DNA of 24,398 nt from a virus, in IMG/VR virus record IMGVR_UViG_3300031758_000555, positions 1 through 24,398 of that record. One strand, given 5' to 3'. The notes below the pieces were generated by a model. That model was not told the origin of the DNA. It ran no database searches and was given only the letters and a program-made list of their open reading frames with translations. Of the stretch, positions 3,174 to 24,398 are shown one piece after another (position 1 is the stretch's first letter; every line of letters starts with the position of its first letter). The position numbers and the translations under genes are program-made.

Positions 3174-6100
3174 TTATGGGCATAGAGCATTACCAAGTTT
3201 AAATGTTGCAGTATTAGTCATGTTAGTTCCTGCCTTTGTGACTATACTCCATTCTCCTGAAGTTAATCCAGACCATACAAAAGAAAAAGAACCACTTGTT
3301 GTTCCAATAGGAAGAGTAAGCGTTGGGATTCCATTTACAGTAAATTGACCCATATAAAGTTCAATTATTCTTGTAGTTGGAACATTAAATGAATATTCAA
3401 TTACATATGTTTCTCCAACAACAGGGAATGTAGTTTCTCCAACCTTACTCGATATATACAAAAACCTTGAAGCATTTGTGTTGTTAAATGTGACTGGTAT
3501 TGTATCTCCAAGCACAAGAATCGGCATTGTTAAATTGCTACTGCTATTAATCCTGTCGTGACGAATGAAATACTCGCAAACAACTGCTGCTTCAGGGAAA
3601 CTGATGTATCCGCAGAAACGATACTTCCCATTATCAAAGTTAGGAGCATCGAGAACAACAGAGGCTTTAAAAGTAACAGGGTCAAAAGCCGTGTCCATTG
3701 AAAGCACAAGCGGATTGTTTAACTCACTCATGCCCCAAAGACTTAGAGCTTCATTATTTTCAACAATAGTTGGGAATCCAAACGGGTCTTTTTCCATAAA
3801 GAAGATGAAGTTACCCTCTCTATCCGCTTCATAAGTAAGTCTAATCGCGTCCCAATCTGCAAAACAAATTGGTGCTTCAATCTCTTGATAAAGACCTGTA
3901 ATCTTATCCTTTCCCTCTATAACAACATCGGTTATTACTTGGTCGTATCCTCCGTTGTTAGGCTCAATCTCAATAGCGTTTACTTTAAAAGCTTTCACCG
4001 TTTTCCAAAAGAACGGAACACCAATTTGAGGGAATAAGTCAAACTCAAAGGTGTATTCAAAATAAACGTCTTCATTTGTCCAAGTCTGAGTAGCTAAAGC
4101 ACTCGTTATATATGAATTTGTAAGTCCACCCGCAGGTGTTCTGTTTAGATATGTAGCTGTATCTGAAGTGCTCACTTGACCTGGCTGAAAAGGAATGTAT
4201 TCCCAAGGCACACGAATGTTTCTAATAGACGTAAGAACATCATCTCCTATGCTTGGGCCAGCGTCTGCAACAATCAGGTTATTGTAGTTATGGAAGTTTC
4301 CTGGATAGGCATAATCCCTTTCTGAATAGTGTGTTTCATATTCAAAGAAAGTTGTTTTGCCCACAGTTGGAAAATTGTCTTTGCGCTTATAAATCTTCAG
4401 TCTAACAGACTTTAGTTGTCTCGGCCAAAATAAATTATCTACCCCCAAATCGGCAAGGCAATCACCAAAATCACCTTCAGATAAAGTCAAGTCATGCCCA
4501 ATTCTTTCTTTAGCAACAGGCTGAAAGCATTCTGTGTTTGTCTTTTGCCAATATTGAACAAAGTTTGAATCAAAGTCAGGAACACAATCACAATCCATAT
4601 CGGGGAAACGAGTAACCCTTATTTCTTCAGATAAGAAGGTGTTTACCATTTCTCCGTTAGAACCATAAACGATTGCGGCCACACGATAAACCGAAGTTGG
4701 ATTGACGCTTGTTCCTACATAAAGAAAGCACTCCCAATAAGCACCACTTAAATATGGAGTACCTCCAGGAGCTACAAGGTGATTATTTAAAACCGCAGTT
4801 CCTGGATAAGTAAGAACTCTGTAACGAGATGAATCAGTAGCGGTTAAAAAGTCAACCGTATCATCGCTTGCCGATGTATCAAACAAGTGATAAACTATTA
4901 CAGGCGCAGTAGCCCCATGAATAGGAGGGACGATGACTTTAAAGGTTATTCTTGTTGGTTCAAGAACAGAAAAGTTATTTACAACTCCATTCGCTCGTGA
5001 CAATGTGAACTGCGGAAGTAAAAACTCAGAAGCCGCATTATTGATTCCTTTATTGTAAAATCTTGCGGCAAAGTTTGAGCAAGTTATTTGATTACAGGCA
5101 AAAGGAGAATCACCCACAAGCGTTGCGGGGTCACTCATGTAAAAAGCTCCTGACAAATACTTTTTATTGCTATTGTAGACCGATGGGAATGTGTTTGTCC
5201 AATCTGAAGAAGTCGATAAAGTTGTCCTTCTGACTTTTGGTGCGTTATTCCAAAGCAGATTGGTTATGAAGTTCTCATAATCTTGAATCAAGTAAAAAGT
5301 AAACTCTACATTGAAATAACCATTAATAGCATCAACTGGTCTGAAATAGACTTCCCAATTTTTTAAGTTTAAAGCATTAGATGTTGCTCCATTAAGAGTC
5401 ATCTGCTGAGCGATTCCATCAGGATGCGCACCCGATAAATACTGAATGTAGTATCCTGTCGGCAGTTGCTGATTGAGTTCAAAAGGTGATTCGCAATCAA
5501 AAATGAATAAAGCAGGATTGAATTGAAGCCTAAAACCTGTCACCAAACCAGGCTCATATCGCATATTGTAAACAACAGTCTTCTTGTCTAAGAAAGAGGC
5601 TTTGCTGTACAATACATCGGGAGAGCAAAATCCTGAACTTGGACTTAGATATCCGCCATCTGTTTGGATTTCAATATCTAAGCAACAAAGACAATCGCAA
5701 GGTTCTTCAACAGCAGTTCCTACAATATCAATTATAATGCTTGAACAAGCTCTAATCGTAGTTGTGCAATCAGGAGTTTCAGAAGGAGAGGTAGGTGTCC
5801 ATTCTAAACATACTTGCGCACTTCCATATGCGGGAATAATAGTTGCTATTGATGGCGTTTGTATTGGCTCAGGAGAACCGCAACCTGATGTTAGAACCTC
5901 AATTTCAATATCTGTAAAAGATGTATTTGCAACAGTTATACATTGAACATTGGTTACACCAACCTGTGTTCCTGTAAAATCAAAAGTTGTAGACAAAAAC
6001 ATATCCTCAACATCTACACAGCTGTGATTAAAAGTCCAAGAAAGGTCATCACCGTGTTCATTGGTCACAATAGTTCCTTCCCAAGAAACAGGAGTTGGAA

Positions 6101-6392: not shown

Positions 6393-8180
6393 TTAAACTA
6401 TACCCTTTACGTCAATAGTTCTCTTCACAAAATCCACCTTCAACTCCTTAATCTCTCCAAATTTAATGTTTGAACCCATCTTGATGCGAACATTTTTTGT
6501 AAAACTTATTGCATCGAACTGAGCACAATCAAATTCAAAAGTGAAGCTAAAGTCATAAACCTTGTTGCCAGGGACTCTTGGGTTATTGATATAATGAAAT
6601 AAAGTGTAAAGGTTATTTGAGTTATTCTCATTAAACCACATTGGGTAGTTGAAGAGCTTGTTTGGAAGTACTGATTGATTGTCCGCTACGGAATAATCAT
6701 TGTTTAAAGGATACCAGTTGGTTACTGGTCCAACAGGGCCATCTGTAAAAGCACTTGAATAATCCCTTTTAATCAAAGCGTTGTTAACGGGTGATGTAGC
6801 ATCCCAAATCAAAAACTTATAGTTAAAAGCCGTGTGCTGCGACATCAGAAGCAAGTTTCTTGAATTGTCAATAGCGTTACCAAATACAGCATTAAAAAAC
6901 CCTACATTAAATGTTGCAAAAGTGTCAATTCCTGCATAATCATCCCTAAATCGAGCAATACCTGATAAAAATTGATTCTCCATAAAACCTTCTTGAGCAG
7001 GTGATGGAGGATTATTCCACTCTACGATTTCGTTGTATCTATCAGCTGCTTCATAGCTAATCAAGTCAGAGCCGTCCTGAAGATAGGTGTATGTAGAATA
7101 AGCATACTTCTTTTCATCAATCCAAGAAAAGCAGATGCGATTATTTATGATTTTCCCATCGTTTAGTAACTGCTCAGAATCTATCCAAGTATTTGTATTC
7201 TCAAAATAGTCTTTTCGCTCGAAAATAAATACACCATCAATAATCCAATACCTTGCATTAAACAAAGGTTTTAGATGCCTTTGCATTAATGTATCAAGCG
7301 TTTCTATTGGAAGATTCTCGGTCATCAATAAACCATTCGACTCACTTGGCTTGTATCCTTTGCGTACTGGGGCTGAGAAAAGCAAAAGATTGTAGTATGG
7401 AGAAGCTGGGTCATTAAGTATAGAGCTTTCAAAAGTAAGGCCGCATTTATCACAAACATTTTGAATGTAATCACGAACAAGTGCTGTTGGATGATACCAT
7501 TGACATTGAATGAGCCTGTTTTGCAAATCTGTAAACCAACCACTTATTTCGGAAAAAGAATCAGCTGGATTAGTCCAAGTTCCTCCTGTACAAGTTGCGC
7601 TATTACAAGATGTTCCTGGAATAGCACATACAATTTGACAAACAACAAAAGCAATTGATTGAACAGCTACTACAACGAGAGAAAGCGGTATTAAAACAGC
7701 ATAAATAGCAACATTCAATATTGAATAAAGAAAAAGTAAAACCTCAGTTATAAACTCAGGCTTCATCTCAACACAATACCTAACCTTTTTTTGTTGTGTG
7801 CCTAAAAGACCATCATAAATAAGTGTTGACTTAACGCAATCAAGTTCGGGCTCTTTTTCTACCATCTGACAAGTAACCCAGCACTCAGGTTCACACCAAT
7901 CAATGGAATCACCTCTTATCACCCCGCTAAACACTAATCTACCGCAGCACTCATCATAAACCTCAGCATTAACCTCATTGATATATCCGTTTGGGTCATC
8001 AATCAAAGCGGTCTTTAAAATGTTATACCCATCTTCATAAAACGTAAGCTCATTGCTGTAAGACTTGACTAATATACCCTCGTCATCACTTTCGCGAAAG
8101 GTTACTTCAAACTTGTCAATACCATCAATCTGACCTGTAATCTGTACGTTGTTAAGCTTTATTACTACGGGTGACTTCAT
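6393..8180 (-). CDS. Tail hub or distal tail protein with a hydrophobic hairpin (595 aa)
   Basis: The gene directly follows the tape measure gene (ATG overlapping its TGA), where siphophages encode distal tail and hub proteins. Residues 1-125 form a beta-rich domain starting KSPVVIKLNNVQITG. Residues about 143-188 are a strikingly hydrophobic stretch (ITEVLLFLYSILNVAIY onwards, ending CQIVCAIPG), long enough for two membrane-spanning helices. The part after residue 220 (YIQNVCDKCGL, LDTLMQRHLKPLFN, WIIDGVFIFERKDYF) resembles the gp27-like hub proteins of tail tips, in which a domain repeats the tail tube fold. The expected role is to cap the tube and hold the tape measure C-terminus. The hydrophobic segment is odd for a hub and might insert in the host membrane on DNA delivery; that is inference. 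Confidence 0.72.
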   Translation of the reverse strand: MKSPVVIKLNNVQITGQIDGIDKFEVTFRESDDEGILVKSYSNELTFYEDGYNILKTALIDDPNGYINEVNAEVYDECCGRLVFSGVIRGDSIDWCEPECWVTCQMVEKEPELDCVKSTLIYDGLLGTQQKKVRYCVEMKPEFITEVLLFLYSILNVAIYAVLIPLSLVVVAVQSIAFVVCQIVCAIPGTSCNSATCTGGTWTNPADSFSEISGWFTDLQNRLIQCQWYHPTALVRDYIQNVCDKCGLTFESSILNDPASPYYNLLLFSAPVRKGYKPSESNGLLMTENLPIETLDTLMQRHLKPLFNARYWIIDGVFIFERKDYFENTNTWIDSEQLLNDGKIINNRICFSWIDEKKYAYSTYTYLQDGSDLISYEAADRYNEIVEWNNPPSPAQEGFMENQFLSGIARFRDDYAGIDTFATFNVGFFNAVFGNAIDNSRNLLLMSQHTAFNYKFLIWDATSPVNNALIKRDYSSAFTDGPVGPVTNWYPLNNDYSVADNQSVLPNKLFNYPMWFNENNSNNLYTLFHYINNPRVPGNKVYDFSFTFEFDCAQFDAISFTKNVRIKMGSNIKFGEIKELKVDFVKRTIDVKGIV

Positions 8181-11100
8181 CGTGTTCTATTGTTTATGCG
8201 TTGTTGCTTGTAACTGATTCGCGAAACTATGCCGTTGATTCCGTTCTCATCAATAGAAAGATTCAATCTGTTTTGTTCTTTAATTGCATTTTCTATTCTT
8301 GAAAGTTTATCGTCCATAGAGCGATTATTCATTACAACAGTCTTCTCAACAAGACCTTTTCCAAGATTCTGAACTCTACCTGAGTGAATAGCCTCCAAAA
8401 GCGGACGATACTGACGAGTGCGCTGAGCATTCATAACGAACTCACCCTTGTGAACTGTACCCGCTGCTTGGAACTGATGACCATCACCCGTGTAACCACC
8501 CTTGGCAAAGGTAGCCGCTGATTGAGCCTGTGCTCTTGCTTGAGCAAAGCCAGCCGCCATAGCAGCAATAATAGCTATGATTGTAAATGGAGCGCCAGGT
8601 TTACCAGCTGCTTGAGAAACGGCAATGGCACTATTAAGTGCTATTTCAACAGCCGCAAGATTTTGTTGTTGACGCACAAAGTCTGCTTTTTGACGATTGA
8701 GTTTGTCAAGTCGGTCTTGCTCGGCCTTCAAAAGAGCTACATTACCCTTATCAGCTATTTCTCTTGCTGCATCAACTCTTCTTTGCTGAGCATTGATAGC
8801 TGCTTCAGTTTGCTTTATCTGGGCATCAATAAAGACCTGTGTAAAGTCAAGCAAAGCATCTGTTACTTCCTTGATAGTATCTAATTGGTCTTCTTTGGTT
8901 AATTCAAGAAACTTTTTCCTTGTTTTTCTTTCTTTCTCGCTTGTTTCTTCTGTTATTGTTTCTCTTTCTTTAGTGCCATCGTCGTGAGCCTTAGTTACCG
9001 CAAGCTCAGTTTCAGCGGTTATCTTTGCAATTTGATACCCGTTTTCTTCAACGATTCCTTTTTCTTTATCATAAAGGTCTTGATATATCTCCACTCTTCC
9101 GTCTGCCGCAGCCTCTTCAAAAGAAAGTGTAGTAAGTAAGCCCTTTTTCTCTTCTTCTGAAATACCAGTATCTGCTTTAACGGCGGCTTTTTTACTCCTT
9201 ATCTCTTGTCTTTTCTCAAGAGCATCATTTAGCTTATTTTCTATTCTTATGAACTCATCAGTTTTATTTCGATAAACCTCCTTTTCAACTTCTGCGGCAG
9301 AAATAATCTTTTGAATATTTTCTTCTTCTCTTTTAACAGAGTTAGCAATAAGCTCAAAGTCTTGTCTTCTTAAATAATCAAAATAATCTTCAGTCAACTC
9401 AAAAAGCTTAGTGTTTGAATTTGTTCTTATTTCAGTTATCTTGTCTTCACCCTCCTTAATTGTGTTAGCTCTTTGTTGAGTTAAAAATTGAATTTTACTT
9501 TCTTCAGCACCAGTATCTTCACCTTGAAGTTCTTTTAATGCAATTAATTCTTTTTGAGCCTTTATTTGCGCATCAATGCCAGAAATATTCGCTTGTGCAA
9601 CCTTTTCGGCATCAGCTATGGCCTGGTCTTGACTTGCCTTTATTCTCTTGGTTTCTTCGTCTATCTCTTTTTGTGTTCTTAAAGTAAAGTTTTTACCTTC
9701 AACAATTACTTCTCTGGCTATTTTACGAAGCCTTCTTGCCGCTCTTCCATCATCTTGAACATCAAAGAAAGAATCTAAAAACTCATCTGTTTTGTCCTTT
9801 AGTTCATTTAATGAATCAAATTCTTTTTCAAGCCTAAATATTGCAAGGTCGCTATAAATGTCTTTTGTTTCTTGAATAAGCTTTCTTCTTTCTTGATAAC
9901 CCTTTCGCTCAATATCATTGATTTTTTTATTAGTGTCAATGTACAGTTTTTCAATCTCTTGTTGAAGAACTGTGTTTAAAAGCTTAATGCGCTCTGCGGA
10001 AGTTGCTCTGCGGCTTTCTTCCTCAGTTATTGCTTTTTTAACAAAGTCAAGCTCTTCTTTCAATCCAGAGGTTACTTCTTCTGCCTTTTCTTTTGTGACC
10101 GCTTTATTTGCTTTAATCGTTATCTCCGATTGAAGGTCTAATGATTTTTGACGTAATTCACGAAGAGTTCTATCTTGCGCAAGTTCTCTTTTTATTTTAT
10201 CTTGCTCTCTTTTGATTTCTCTTCTAATACCCTCCTCTTCTATTTTTTCAACGGCGCGTAATTGTTCAACCTCGCCTTCAAAAAGAAGTGGCGTTCTAAA
10301 CTCTATTCTTTTCTTTCTAATGTCCTCATCGTTCTTAGCTATACGATTTAAAAGGTCGTAATAACTTTCAAGGCCATCTTTTCTTCTCTTGATTGAGTCT
10401 TCAAACTCATCGGTAGCCTTTTTTAATCTTTGTTCTTCTTCGGGGTCAAAGAAAGTAGTTCCCTCGGTTGTTTTAAGTTCGGAGTTCAATGCGCCAATAG
10501 AAGTCTTTGTCTCAATCGCTTTTGAACCAAGGTCAAGAACAGTGTCTCCAAATCGCTTTAGTGTGTCGGATTGAGCGCGTTCTATATCATTAGCTGCCTC
10601 TCCAGCAACATTTGCACCCGTTTCAATAGCACCAAGAAACCCTTTTTCGGCATCTTTTTTTAATGCGTTAACCTTATCCGCCGTCACTTGTCCATTTGCT
10701 ACGGCTACCGAATCAAGTCTTTGCAAATTTTCTTCCGCAAAAGTGGCAAAATCACCAAACTCTTCCTTGAATTTTGGAAGGTCTATTATGTTTTCGGGTT
10801 TTATACCTTGTCTTGCTCCTTTTTCAAGTTCCGCACTTATTTTTCCAACTGTGTCAAACAATTGAGCGTATTGCTCGGTTCTAACTTGAATCAAAGCCGC
10901 GCTTCTTGCGAAGTTATCCGCCGCTATTGCAGCTTTATCATATTGAAGGCTAAGGTCTGATAAGAATTGAGTTTCATCTTTTATGTCCTTAGCGTTTACC
11001 TTGTATGTCTTATTTAACTCATCAAGTAATTTCTTTCTTTCCGCTGTACCCGTATTAGTTCTTTTTATTGACTCATAAAGCTCATCAAGCCTTTTCTTTT

Positions 11101-16303: not shown

Positions 16304-16473
16304 ATACGAATCAAACCAATCTGCGTTGCATAAAATTCCGAACCAAGACCTCAGGCTCAAATTCCAAAAAAATAGCGGGGTATGGAGCTTAGAGAATTTG
16401 GCCCGCCAAAAATCAGGGTAGGGGGGGTATTTTGCCGAAAATCGGGCGAAAATTGGCTGTTTTGGGGCTTTTT

Positions 16474-16898: not shown

Positions 16899-17762
16899 TT
16901 ACCATAGTTCGAAGGTGTACGGGCTTGCCTTGCTGCTCGGCGGGCTTGTCAGCAGTCTTTCGAGTTCTTCTAAGTCATAGGTGTTGTATGTTCTCGCCGC
17001 CTCTTCAACTTCCCAAAGAAAAGAAACGTCGTGTGTATCGCATGCAAGTGCTTCGGCTATGTTTTCGGCGGTTCTATATGTCACTCCTGTAAAGTAGTTG
17101 CGCAAATAACTCATGTTCTCCGCTTCCATTTCGTGGCGGTGGTTATATTCTGACGGGCTCAATATGGTCTTTGCTTTGCTCTTGGTGTACTTGCTTGCGT
17201 ACTTATCTATTCGGGTCGTTCCGTGGTATGAATAGCGGCTCTGCTGGTGGCTGTCGTTGCTGTACCATGTATCGCCATTCCATGTTCCCGCCTGCTCGTT
17301 TATTATCGTGTAACGGCCTGTTGATTCAAGAAAAACTAACTTGCTCCCGCTGACATAGCTCGCTATTAGTTCCCGGGTTGTTTCGCAGGCGAGAAAGTTA
17401 GCAGGCAACTTTTGCAACATATGGTTGAATTGGGCCGTGTCGCTGTGCGTCTCGTTTCCAAGTCCTGCTATTACTCCGTTATGAACGAATGACAAGTTGT
17501 TGTTTACCTGAAAAGGGTGCAAGTTGTCAAGGGTGCGTGCTCCTGACGTCGCTATTCTGAAGTGCAGTACAATTGGCTGCTTGTTCTTTGGTCGGATGGT
17601 TTGGTATGTCTTTAGCAGTTCGGCGCGGTCGTATGTTTTGAACGTCTTAACTTGGCCGCGTTCAATCCATATCAGGCCCGCTCCCTCGGGGTTGTTGTTC
17701 CATGCTGTGTTGATGGTTGCCGCGTTTAATTGGCTCCGCTTGTTTAGTATTGCTATACACAT
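16899..17762 (-). CDS. Class II glutamine amidotransferase (287 aa)
   Basis: The N-terminal domain is an Ntn-type glutaminase, which removes ammonia from glutamine by means of an N-terminal cysteine. C2 comes directly after the initiator Met (MCIAIL). The arginine motif is HFRIATSG (R69), the oxyanion motif is FVHNGVI (N95, G96) and the aspartate motif is SDTAQF (D108), matching GlmS/PurF-type domains. Residues from about 190 on form a charged helical C-terminus without a synthase domain, so ammonia or a glutamyl group must be passed to another protein. The amidoligase is encoded just upstream, 44 bases away, and a cyclotransferase before it; a terminator follows. Asparagine-synthetase or GlmS function is excluded by size. 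Substrate unknown. Confidence 0.88.
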   Translation of the reverse strand: MCIAILNKRSQLNAATINTAWNNNPEGAGLIWIERGQVKTFKTYDRAELLKTYQTIRPKNKQPIVLHFRIATSGARTLDNLHPFQVNNNLSFVHNGVIAGLGNETHSDTAQFNHMLQKLPANFLACETTRELIASYVSGSKLVFLESTGRYTIINEQAGTWNGDTWYSNDSHQQSRYSYHGTTRIDKYASKYTKSKAKTILSPSEYNHRHEMEAENMSYLRNYFTGVTYRTAENIAEALACDTHDVSFLWEVEEAARTYNTYDLEELERLLTSPPSSKASPYTFELW

Positions 17763-17806
17763 AGATTTGATGTTGTTACTTGTTGTTGTTGTGGTTCTGG
17801 GTTTGA

Positions 17807-19189
17807 TTAAAACAGGGTGGTTTGTCCATCTTGCGGGTCTATCTGTTCGAACTTGCGGGTGTAACGTATTACACGCGCGCTGAGGCGCTCAAATACTTCT
17901 GGCGTGTATACCTTTAGAAAGTGTTTCTTGAGTGCGTTGTGGAGGTTATAAAAGGCCTTGCGGGGGTTGTCTGTCTGGTGCTCTAACATGAGCGCAATTA
18001 ACTCCGTTCGCCATATCAGGTTGTCTACATTCTTAACTGCCGAGAATATACGGAACTCAATCCTGTTGCCAAGTATGTTAATGCTCTGGTATCTGTCGCG
18101 TTCGGCTTTCATTTTGTCAATGCTCTTTGCCGAACAAAACGATACATTGTCGGCCCTATTCGGGTACATTGCATGGAGCAAAGGTGTATAACCTTGAATG
18201 CTGTTGTATAGGCTCAACCCGCTGGTGTTCTCTTGGCTTAGATGGATATGCCCGCCGCAATTGCTTGAATAGGCCGCGTTGACATGCTGGGTCAATACTT
18301 CGCATCGCTTCAACATTGCTTCAATCTTCTGGGGCTGCAATTCTAACGGCGGGCTGATTAATTCGTAGCCTGTTGAGCTATCAAGACTCCCGTCTCTCTC
18401 CTTTCTCCATTTCGGGTGCTTGCTGTATAGGTCGCGCAACTTTACGCTGTACTTGGCTTCTTCGTCTTCCTTCTCTATTTCGTAGCCTATTAAATACTCG
18501 CTTCGCTCTCCTTCTGGGTTGAAATATTGCGCGGGTTGGCTTTGTCTGTGATGGTAGTTGTCGATATAAAGTGAGTCACTATCTTCCTCCTCTCCGTGCC
18601 ATGTTCCATCCTCCCACTGATAGCAGTCACTTTGATAGTCTACTTCGTTTGTGTCCTCATTCAAACACAGGTCGTAATAATACAGGGCGCCAATATCGTA
18701 GTACGACCCGTCAAAGTAGTATAGTTCGTTTGCGTCAATTGCGCGCTCGCTCCATTGCTGGCGGCGTGGGGTTCCCCATCTGGTTCCCGTTCTTACTTCA
18801 TAGGTATTGGCTGCCGTTCTTGCTTCGTAATATTCGCAATATTCCATCTCTTCGGCTTCCTCTTCTGTTATCCATTCGCCTTCTAACGTCTCTATCTTTA
18901 CCTCTTCTTCTTCCTCCTCTTCTGGCTCCTCTTCGTGTATCTCCCAAGCAAGCGGTCCCGCTTCTTTTTCGGCTATCGTGTAAAGGGTGTGTCCGTCGCT
19001 CGCGTGCTCGGTTTCAGTGAGTACAATTGTAAGTTCTGGCGCTGCGTTCACTATCGCCCGGGCTGCTCTCTCGGCTTCCTCGTGAACGAATAGGGGCTGT
19101 TGTATGCCTGCAATAATTGACGCGGCGAATGTTTGGTTGGTGTATTGGTTTGATACACTTAACCATGTGAGGGTGTTTGTTGTGTTCAT
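17807..19189 (-). CDS. Putative amidoligase, COOH-NH2 ligase of the GCS fold (460 aa)
   Basis: The C-terminal half carries the motifs of the amidoligase family related to glutamine synthetase and gamma-glutamylcysteine ligase: GYEIE (235-239), ERDGSL (264-269), GYELISPP (274-281), CGGHIHLS (311-318) and NRIEFRIFS (375-383). The acidic, His and Arg residues in these motifs normally bind Mg-ATP and activate a carboxylate for amide formation. The N-terminal 230 residues are extra: a small alpha/beta part, a long acidic run (about 86-119) and a Tyr/Trp/Asp-rich segment (150-200) that resembles a degraded zinc-binding module. Flanking genes encode a gamma-glutamylcyclotransferase and a glutamine amidotransferase, so glutamyl peptide or amide chemistry is likely. 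The leader holds ACACAAACAC just before ATG 19189. Substrate unknown. Confidence 0.84.
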   Translation of the reverse strand: MNTTNTLTWLSVSNQYTNQTFAASIIAGIQQPLFVHEEAERAARAIVNAAPELTIVLTETEHASDGHTLYTIAEKEAGPLAWEIHEEEPEEEEEEEVKIETLEGEWITEEEAEEMEYCEYYEARTAANTYEVRTGTRWGTPRRQQWSERAIDANELYYFDGSYYDIGALYYYDLCLNEDTNEVDYQSDCYQWEDGTWHGEEEDSDSLYIDNYHHRQSQPAQYFNPEGERSEYLIGYEIEKEDEEAKYSVKLRDLYSKHPKWRKERDGSLDSSTGYELISPPLELQPQKIEAMLKRCEVLTQHVNAAYSSNCGGHIHLSQENTSGLSLYNSIQGYTPLLHAMYPNRADNVSFCSAKSIDKMKAERDRYQSINILGNRIEFRIFSAVKNVDNLIWRTELIALMLEHQTDNPRKAFYNLHNALKKHFLKVYTPEVFERLSARVIRYTRKFEQIDPQDGQTTLF

Positions 19190-19208
19190 CTTGTGTTTGT
19201 GTTTGGGG

Positions 19209-19556
19209 TTATTGTGCTGCTGCTGGTGTTGGTGCTGCCATGTAAATTTGAACGGGTACCTGTTCGCCCGTTTCGGCGGTTATCACTTGAGACTCTACCC
19301 GAATGTATAGTTCGGTTTCGTACTCATCCAATATGGCGAGCTCCTCGGCGGTTACTTTGTAGGCGTGGCCATAAACTACCGACTCGGTATCAAATACAAG
19401 TGACGGGTAAAAATTGCCGTCGGTCGGGTCATATACATTGCGCACTATCTTAAACCCTTTCAGGGTGCAAATAGGGCCGTTTAACGTGCGGCCGATTAGC
19501 TCGCGCTGTGTGTGTGGCTGCTGGAGTGTGCCGTAACAAAAAATTGTGTTTTGCAT
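19209..19556 (-). CDS. Gamma-glutamylcyclotransferase (AIG2)-like protein (115 aa)
   Basis: The protein shows the AIG2/GGCT fold signature: FCYGTL near the start (residues 6-11), followed by the usual basic helix (QRELIGR), a mid-protein GHAYKVTAEELAILDEYE and an Arg after Tyr (YIRVE). E80 in LDEYE is at the position of the catalytic glutamate of this family, which cyclises gamma-glutamyl groups to release 5-oxoproline. The start chosen is ATG 19556, right before the first strand; a longer frame starting at 19631 would include promoter and leader. It is first in a unit with the amidoligase (19 bases after it) and the amidotransferase, and may cut or trim gamma-glutamyl linkages made by the ligase. 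Confidence 0.87.
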   Translation of the reverse strand: MQNTIFCYGTLQQPHTQRELIGRTLNGPICTLKGFKIVRNVYDPTDGNFYPSLVFDTESVVYGHAYKVTAEELAILDEYETELYIRVESQVITAETGEQVPVQIYMAAPTPAAAQ

Positions 19557-19600: not shown

Positions 19601-19633
19601 CAAATATATATCGAACTTTCGCTTGTTTCACAA
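19601..19633 (-). promoter_or_regulatory. Promoter of the amidoligase unit
   Basis: The minus strand has TATATTTG (19608-19601), a perfect Bacteroidetes -7 box, with TTG (19633-19631) 22 bases upstream, a slightly long spacer. The mRNA would start near 19594, about 38 bases before the cyclotransferase ATG. It faces away from the early promoter at 20130-20161 and has nearly the same ATATATATTTG core. Confidence 0.62.
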
Positions 19634-19786
19634 TTTACTGTACTTTTTACTTTACTTTTTCTTTGCTTCCCCTGTGTGGCGCGGGTTCCGTTTCAAATTA
19701 TTGATAATTGTTAATTTTCTTGGCGCTTGGTTCTGGCTTCCTCCCGTGCGTGGCGAGGGTGAACGGCGGGTGAATGTACGCGGGCC

Positions 19787-19887
19787 CGTATGCGTGCGCT
19801 TGCGTGTGTACGTACGTGTGTGTGTATGCGCGTGTGTGTACACGTGTGCGGGTGCGTGCGCGTATGCGTGTGCGCGTGTGCGCGTAT
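19787..19887. repeat. Alternating pyrimidine-purine tract (GT/GC/AC), Z-DNA-prone
   Basis: Bases 19801-19850 alternate strictly pyrimidine-purine for 50 nt (mainly GT, CG, TA and CA steps). Shorter alternating runs flank it (19787-19799 and 19853-19887), separated by single phase breaks. The tract is far richer in G+C than the adjoining phage DNA. Confidence 0.85.
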
Positions 19888-19897
19888 TATGGATCTG

Positions 19898-20073
19898 TCG
19901 AAAATGCGCCTATATGCCCCTGTCGAAAACATAACTCGCCTATGAGCGTGCGCTCGAAAATGCGCCTATGAGCGCGTTGTCGAAAACACAGGTGTGCCTA
20001 TATGGGTGTATCGAAAACACGCATGCCCCTATACGCACCCGTCGAAAACACGCCTATATGTGTGCGTCGAAAA
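19898..20073 (+). repeat. Seven-copy TCGAAAA iteron-like array
   Basis: TCGAAAA occurs at 19898, 19923, 19954, 19980, 20011, 20042 and 20067, with distances of 25, 31, 26, 31, 31 and 25. Five copies continue with C plus mostly AC or GC and two with TGC; six are followed by a CCTATA or CCTATG word before the next copy. The sequences between differ but keep these anchors. The unit lengths and the drift of reading frame argue against coding. Probable multiple binding sites for an initiator or regulator. Confidence 0.8.
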
Positions 20074-20129
20074 CGCAACTATTTTTACTTTAGTAAACGA
20101 AAAAAACGAAAAAAAAATTAAGAAAAAAC

Positions 20130-20161
20130 TTGACTTTAATAAATCGAGGCATATATATTTG
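20130..20161 (+). promoter_or_regulatory. Rightward early promoter
   Basis: TTGAC (20130) and a perfect -7 box TATATTTG (20154-20161) are 21 bases apart, and a C follows as in many Bacteroidetes promoters. The mRNA would start near 20168, inside a leader CGAAACACAAACACAA, about 22 bases before ATG 20190. The iteron array ends some 55 bp upstream, so a protein bound there could control it. Confidence 0.65.
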
Positions 20162-20189: not shown

Positions 20190-20462
20190 ATGAAAGAAGA
20201 AATCAGAGAAAAGGCTCTATCTTTTATTGAGGAGCTGGATGGAGAAGCGAAGGAGCAACTTACATTGCTTTTAGATGAGCTTATCCCTTGGGTGAAAGAT
20301 ACCCATAGCAAGCCACCAACTACGAAAAACTATTATGGCGACTATATGCGAATCATGTCTTATAGGCCAGAATTTGCAAAGGCCATTGGAATCATGCTTG
20401 TTGCTGCTGGTGCTAATCCAGAAGGTGTAAGGGCCGCATACAATATTGTAAGAATGTTTTAA
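20190..20462 (+). CDS. First early gene, unknown (90 aa)
   Basis: The 90-aa product starts at ATG 20190; a longer frame from TTG 20130 would include the promoter and can be excluded. It is helical: an acidic N-terminal helix (KEEIREKALSFIEELDGEAK), a second one (QLTLLLDELIPWV), a polar hinge, and a C-terminal helix with AIGIMLVAAGANPEGV and a closing basic end (AAYNIVRMF). No family recognised. As first gene after the rightward promoter and iteron array, it could be a regulator or host takeover protein; nothing in the sequence proves it. Confidence 0.72.
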   Translation: MKEEIREKALSFIEELDGEAKEQLTLLLDELIPWVKDTHSKPPTTKNYYGDYMRIMSYRPEFAKAIGIMLVAAGANPEGVRAAYNIVRMF

Positions 20463-23993: not shown

Positions 23994-24398
23994 ATGAATC
24001 AAACAGAAACAACCGTAGAGGTAAAAGTTGCCACGGGCATCGACAAGGAAACCAAAAACGCACTCAAAGCAAACATCAGGAGCAAGTATGGCTCCATGCA
24101 CAACTTTTGCAAGATTGCAGGCATTTCTTACTCAAGAATGAATATGTTTTTTGTAGGCAGACTGCGTAAAGACACCGAGGAGAAGATGTATAACGATGTA
24201 AAGGTTTTGGTTGACAGTTTGCTTAACCAAATGGTTGACCAAATTATGACCGAAGAGGAGCGTAAAAGTATCCGAGGAATCATATTTTCTAAGTTTAAAA
24301 ACGTAAGAACTTTTTGTCTTGACCACGATGAATTTAGCATCACTTTCGTGTCTAAAATAGTCAACGGCCAGCGCAGAAAAAAGGATGAGAAGTATGAG
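23994..24398 (+). CDS. Possible HTH protein after RecT, cut by the right edge
   Basis: An ATG two bases after the recT stop opens a frame that stays open to the window end (135 codons visible). Residues about 24-52 read like an HTH domain (NIRSKYGSMHNFCKIAGISY, then SRMNMFFVGRLRK). The following helix (MYNDVKVLVDSLLNQMVDQI), the MTEEERKSIRGIIFSKF segment and the basic end (GQRRKKDEKYE) support a DNA-binding protein, perhaps a regulator or replication factor. The stop codon is not in the window. Confidence 0.7.
   Translation, partial: MNQTETTVEVKVATGIDKETKNALKANIRSKYGSMHNFCKIAGISYSRMNMFFVGRLRKDTEEKMYNDVKVLVDSLLNQMVDQIMTEEERKSIRGIIFSKFKNVRTFCLDHDEFSITFVSKIVNGQRRKKDEKYE

Follow-up and report, generated by a model that had tools for sequence, protein, structure and literature searches.

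Upstream of the early genes of an uncultured phage of Bacteroidota, we have identified an array of seven asymmetric, bipartite sites that all face the early genes; a conserved promoter follows shortly after the last of them. Judged by its geometry and its distribution among related phages, the array is most likely a place where a regulatory protein docks and not the main origin of replication. The more specific reading that we favour, tentatively and at slightly below an even chance, is that the array would act in cis on the early promoter, as its operator, and would be bound unit by unit by a two-module protein. The window, the whole stretch of DNA analysed here, is a linear IMG/VR record of 24,398 bp.

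The setting is an uncultured group of phages of Bacteroidota that has no close relative among isolated phages. Phage records gave no match when the whole window was searched by Megablast, its TerL is only about 24–28% identical to those of isolated phages, and the 22608 product had no match among isolated phages. A scan of bacterial genomes returned only distant Bacteroidota TerL homologues (24–39% identity). Elements of this kind are known; among the annotated phage records searched, the array, its unit and the phage group have no precedent, and literature searches brought up no evident account of similar arrays in phages of Bacteroidota or of parS in phages that lack ParB. The array is a sharply defined and testable putative regulatory site, with a unit, a spacing rule and a candidate binder. 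Related phages are cited below by our record handles (L006, G017 and the like).

The repeat unit

Seven exact copies of TCGAAAA lie on the plus strand, at 19898, 19923, 19954, 19980, 20011, 20042 and 20067, with steps of 25, 31, 26, 31, 31 and 25 bp. This repeat, which the original prediction had placed at 19898–20073, is real and is confirmed here, as are all six of the CCTATA or CCTATG words said to be interleaved with it. Elsewhere in the whole 24.4-kb window TCGAAAA occurs once, at 7219. When the local 211 bp were dinucleotide-shuffled 5,000 times, TCGAAAA never exceeded two copies and no 7-mer of any sequence exceeded five. Complete CCTATR-N8/9-TCGAAAA units number six in the window, against a mean of 0.0 in shuffled windows.

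The repeat had nevertheless been framed wrongly, since the constant unit is a CCTAT half together with the TCGAAAA that follows it. An A-type unit (CCTATAYG-N6-TCGAAAA) measures 21 bp and a G-type unit (CCTATGAG-N7-TCGAAAA) 22 bp. In the window and the related phage L006 taken together, CCTATA always stands 14 nt, and CCTATG always 15 nt, before TCGAAAA or ACGAAAA (11 of 11), the latter being a variant of the right half found once, in L006. The exact permutation chance of this match between type and distance is 1/330, a generous figure, as the copies share ancestry. A left half precedes the first TCGAAAA as well; this half, GTATTATGGATCTGT, is divergent and resembles the units of L032. Counting this variant unit, which starts at 19883, the array consists of seven full units over 19883–20073. 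The features of the region are as follows.

19601–19631, minus strand: leftward promoter-like site, TATATTTG on that strand, weak consensus only
19774–19891: alternating purine-pyrimidine (Z-prone) tract, 118 bp, left of the array
19883–19904, plus strand: unit 1, variant, CGTATTATGGATCTGTCGAAAA, left half like the L032 units CTATTATNNNNNNNTCGAAAA
19909–19929, plus strand: unit 2, A type, CCTATATGCCCCTGTCGAAAA
19939–19960, plus strand: unit 3, G type, CCTATGAGCGTGCGCTCGAAAA
19965–19986, plus strand: unit 4, G type, CCTATGAGCGCGTTGTCGAAAA
19997–20017, plus strand: unit 5, A type, CCTATATGGGTGTATCGAAAA
20028–20048, plus strand: unit 6, A type, CCTATACGCACCCGTCGAAAA
20053–20073, plus strand: unit 7, A type, CCTATATGTGTGCGTCGAAAA
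20074–20160: AT-rich stretch, 78% A+T, right of the array
20084–20097: inverted repeat TTTACTTTAGTAAA, between array and promoter
20130–20161, plus strand: early promoter, TTGAC ... TATATTTG
20190–20462, plus strand: first early gene, 90 aa, all-helical model, no known family
23994–24398, plus strand: gene for a tandem helix-turn-helix (HTH) protein, candidate array binder, cut by the window end

From one TCGAAAA to the next CCTAT the distance varies from 11 to 17. Spacing is thus fixed within units and loose between them, and the loose part differs in relatives, the steps of the L006 array being 25, 27, 29, 25, 27 and 26. No helical phase was found at 10.0 or 10.5 bp, and the best value, at 11.0 bp, reached only p ~0.08 with small numbers. 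The alternation of 25- and 31-bp steps had been taken as a possible sign of two protein arrangements. Because the spacing between units is loose, unphased and different in relatives, this alternation is accidental or loosely constrained and has no conserved meaning. A supposed degenerate copy in the leader of the first early gene, CTCGAAACAC, is probably due to chance as well, since its counterpart reads CCTCAAACAC in L006 and CTCCAAACAC in L020.

Flanking sequences and genes

The Z-prone tract noted originally on the left of the array is real, with a score of 90 where 200 shuffled windows gave no more than 32, and L006, L051/G016 and G022 have an equivalent tract on this side of their arrays; it is absent from L032, L028, L027, L038 and L047. 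To the right follow the AT-rich stretch and, overlapping its end, the early promoter. TTGAC...TATATTTG elements with equal spacing stand downstream of the arrays in L006, L020, L051, G022 and L032. The core of the intervening inverted repeat, ACTTTAGTAA, is also present in L006 and L020, and no counterpart was seen at the same place in L051 or G022.

Left of the Z-prone tract, the minus strand carries genes for a gamma-glutamyl cyclotransferase (GGCT), an amidoligase and a class-II glutamine amidotransferase (GATase), which are preceded by the leftward promoter-like site. They form an operon-like set (16899–19556) with a GC content of 0.45–0.50, compared with about 0.38 for the rest of the window, and the set may modify a metabolite or a peptide. 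Further left, at about 16328–16380, a block GCATAAAATTCCGAACCAAGACCTCAGGCTCAAATTCCAAAAAAATAGCGGGG that is conserved in L027 and L038 lies just upstream of the small terminase gene (terS). The array had been thought to sit between divergent promoters. In L032, a terminator-like sequence lies at the end of the gene to the left of the array. As this upstream gene runs on the strand of the early genes, the constant partner of the array is the early promoter and not the divergence.

Arrays in related phages

L007/L010 are the same phage as the window. A search of related phages recovered arrays of the CCTAT/TCGAAAA unit in distinct phages, namely L006, L051/G016, G022 (locus L039) and L032/G015. 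The record of L020 begins within its array and shares half of that of the window. The five array sequences contain 4–6 relaxed matches within 220 bp, compared with at most two in shuffles, and relaxed units cluster in no other of about 150 fetched loci. Every array lies on the early-gene strand and ends shortly upstream of the conserved TTGAC...TATATTTG promoter. L006 is close to the window in TerL (94% identity), and their amidoligases are 58% identical. The geometry and orientation of the unit persist in phages with different flanking genes, which supports the idea of a protein-binding array or master regulatory site put forward in the original prediction: unit, orientation and position before the early promoter are kept while the neighbouring genes change.

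Positions 1–108 of L020 are 99% identical to window positions 19966–20073, and the gene that follows is 71% identical at the DNA level. A recent exchange or a shared assembly break could explain this identity.

None of these arrays was found in L038/G019 or L047/G020, and near-complete G017 lacks the array, as does G020, which is also near-complete. In L028 (reverse complement, about 9410–9690), AAAATCA words recur at 21–50 bp steps before the early promoter; the early proteins of L028 are close to those of L032, yet its repeats differ and fit the unit poorly. In G017/L027 (40.4 kb), five parS-like sites, including two perfect copies of TGTTCCACGTGAAACA, occupy 6777–6997, upstream of terS and between it and the early genes. 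No ParB gene was detected in that record. Among the fetched relatives, such a cluster was seen only in G017.

A proposed operator array and its candidate binders

The fixed spacing within units and the free, unphased spacing between them, seen in both the window and L006, suggest single sites that are bound independently. Repeated binding-site-like sequences that stand beside a promoter and are conserved with it, as would be expected of an operator array, are present here. We picture seven asymmetric 21–22-bp sites, directed towards the early genes, each of which would be occupied on its own by a protein that contacts DNA through two modules, one for CCTATR and the other for YCGAAAA. Occupancy of the array would then set the activity of the promoter at 20130–20161, by either shut-off or activation. 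For a simple operator, seven would be a large number of sites, which argues against this reading. No integrase was found in 13 records, so that the phages look lytic and a repressor of the lysogeny type is not expected.

The best phage-encoded candidate for the binder is the tandem-HTH protein at 23994, which is conserved after RecT in nearly complete relatives. Its AlphaFold model (pLDDT 83.5, pTM 0.48) places two helix-turn-helix units in one chain and resembles POU domains and Cro/CI-type repressors weakly (best E 0.38). By analogy with a mycobacteriophage repressor (PMC9283540), a chain of this kind would fit an asymmetric site made of two halves. The HTH recognition regions are alike in the window, L020, G016 and G022, whose sites are also alike; in L032 the recognition regions differ, and so does the left half-site. 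G017/L027, however, lacks the array and still encodes a tandem-HTH protein that is 75% identical to that of L020, with nearly identical HTH segments, while the HTH protein of L028 is 92% identical to that of L032 despite a different repeat region. These two cases disfavour a strict coupling of HTH protein and array. The proposal that the 23994 protein binds the array thus survives as a candidate assignment, weakened by the retention of the protein in a relative without the array.

Other proteins fared less well as binders. The product of the first early gene (20190), also proposed originally, is absent from the array-bearing phages G016, G022 and G015 and is present in L021–L024, where the motif does not cluster; its five-helix model has no credible match among solved folds. 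A small XRE protein of G022 occurs in G017 too. No protein was limited to the array-bearing phages, except for short ORFs common to a few of them.

The array and the origin of replication

In the original prediction an origin of replication was the other proposed role. On that reading, as developed here, the array would provide iterons for a phage initiator and the AT-rich stretch at 20074–20160 would be the unwinding element, whether of a sole origin or of a second one like oriR of SPP1. In its favour, direct repeats do adjoin a 78% AT stretch in a non-coding region, and this part of the proposal stands. In SPP1, about 13 kb separate the two origins; each consists of direct repeats and an AT-rich region, and oriR adjoins moron genes (PMC6316719), much as the array borders a GC-rich accessory operon. 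We nonetheless regard an origin as unlikely, though as an alternative to be taken seriously.

Evidence against it comes from the replisome organizer genes, and since that of the window lies beyond its end, the argument rests on relatives. The early region of L020 encodes a replisome organizer (PHROG 13246, E 2.4e-9), another early protein and an SSB-like protein; organizer genes were located at 4337–5194 in L020, 3870–4655 in G016 and 8042–8833 in G022. The organizers have a common C-terminal part and two unrelated types of N domain, type I in L020, G015, G017 and G020 and type II (PHROG 9327-like) in G016, G021 and G022. In the relatives, the linker-coding part of the gene holds palindromic repeats of its own, directly before an AT-rich run. 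These are TTGGTTAACCAA in L020, with a 21-bp version in G017, for type I, and TGCCACGGCA at 12-bp steps in G016, G021 and G022 for type II; they are weak or absent in G015, L028 and G020. The in-gene repeats thus follow the initiator type, and N domain and repeats appear to constitute a natural swap of initiator plus origin.

The intergenic array, by contrast, shares no sequence with the in-gene repeats and occurs with both initiator types (type I in L020 and G015, type II in G016 and G022). As it accompanies both and is missing from G017 and G020, it is unlikely to be the organizer's origin. Its unphased sites, few as they are, also speak against an iteron origin. The suggested comparison with GC skew did not point to the array either, the minimum of the window being at 16365 and the minima of other records also lying elsewhere. 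Two kinds of repeat can therefore be told apart in one phage group, of which the in-gene kind follows the initiator and the intergenic kind the early promoter, and this cautions against calling every iteron-like array an origin.

Other explanations

The stretch upstream of the early promoter could instead be a landing pad for a nucleoid or segregation protein of the host, with sites that vary with the host: parS-like in G017, the CCTAT/TCGAAAA unit in the window. The parS-like cluster of G017/L027, a record without detectable ParB, fits such a role, as does the finding that no phage protein tracks the array strictly. Yet parS is palindromic and the array unit is not, and viral contigs have paired parS-like sites in at least 120 stretches, so that those of G017 may be unrelated. 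Moreover, the unit is not enriched over its reversed pattern in 395 Bacteroidota genomes, a set that may not include the actual host; it is thus not an obvious host site, and a host chromosomal motif was rejected on the same grounds. We regard the landing pad as improbable. A further reading, in which the early-promoter stretch would be an exchangeable docking platform that keeps its place while its site family is swapped (CCTAT/TCGAAAA array, divergent AAAATCA repeats or host parS), likewise seems to us improbable. If true, control or tethering of the incoming genome would fall to different DNA-organising proteins, possibly those of the host.

That the array has no role in early transcription or replication, being instead a passive or selfish repeat or a signal for recombination or packaging, we consider quite improbable. 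The near-identity of its last 108 bp in L020 and the window, beside a more divergent gene, would fit recent exchange, but unit geometry and orientation are maintained despite different flanking genes, no integrase was found, and the conserved block beside terS is a better candidate packaging site. An integrated or partition system was set aside, as the 13 records yielded neither integrase nor ParB. Mu-like transposase-end sites, suggested by the CGAAAA-like half, were dropped too, because the array separates the late gene block from the early one and none of the proteins read was noticed to be a transposase.

Comparison with known systems

Iteron plasmid origins of the pSC101 and RK2 type carry asymmetric direct repeats of about 20 bp in tandem. 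The array of the window is similar in this respect; unlike those origins, it has no recognised Rep initiator gene beside it, and its spacing is unphased. The lambda origin within gene O (PMC7466680) and oriL and oriR of SPP1 (PMC6316719) resemble the array in having direct repeats beside an AT-rich stretch, whereas these phages have the lambda O and SPP1 gene 38 layout inside the organizer gene, with other repeat sequences. Clusters of parS bound by ParB have their parallel in the parS-like cluster that G017 carries in the same genome stretch. However, parS is a 16-bp palindrome, and the array units are asymmetric, unrelated in sequence and contain no TGTTTCACGTGAAACA-like palindromic sites.

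The operators and stoperators of cluster A mycobacteriophages such as L5 differ from the array in that they are 13-bp sites spread over the genomes of temperate phages. Here, seven 21–22-bp sites serve, as we propose, one promoter of an apparently lytic phage, and the full units of this partial genome form one cluster rather than being dispersed. There is no sequence relation between the two, and the binder of the array is a candidate. The likeness is that numerous asymmetric sites all face the same way with respect to transcription (PMC9283540), and the repressor of TipsytheTRex, a monomer with two DNA-binding domains, reads one such asymmetric site (PMC9283540).
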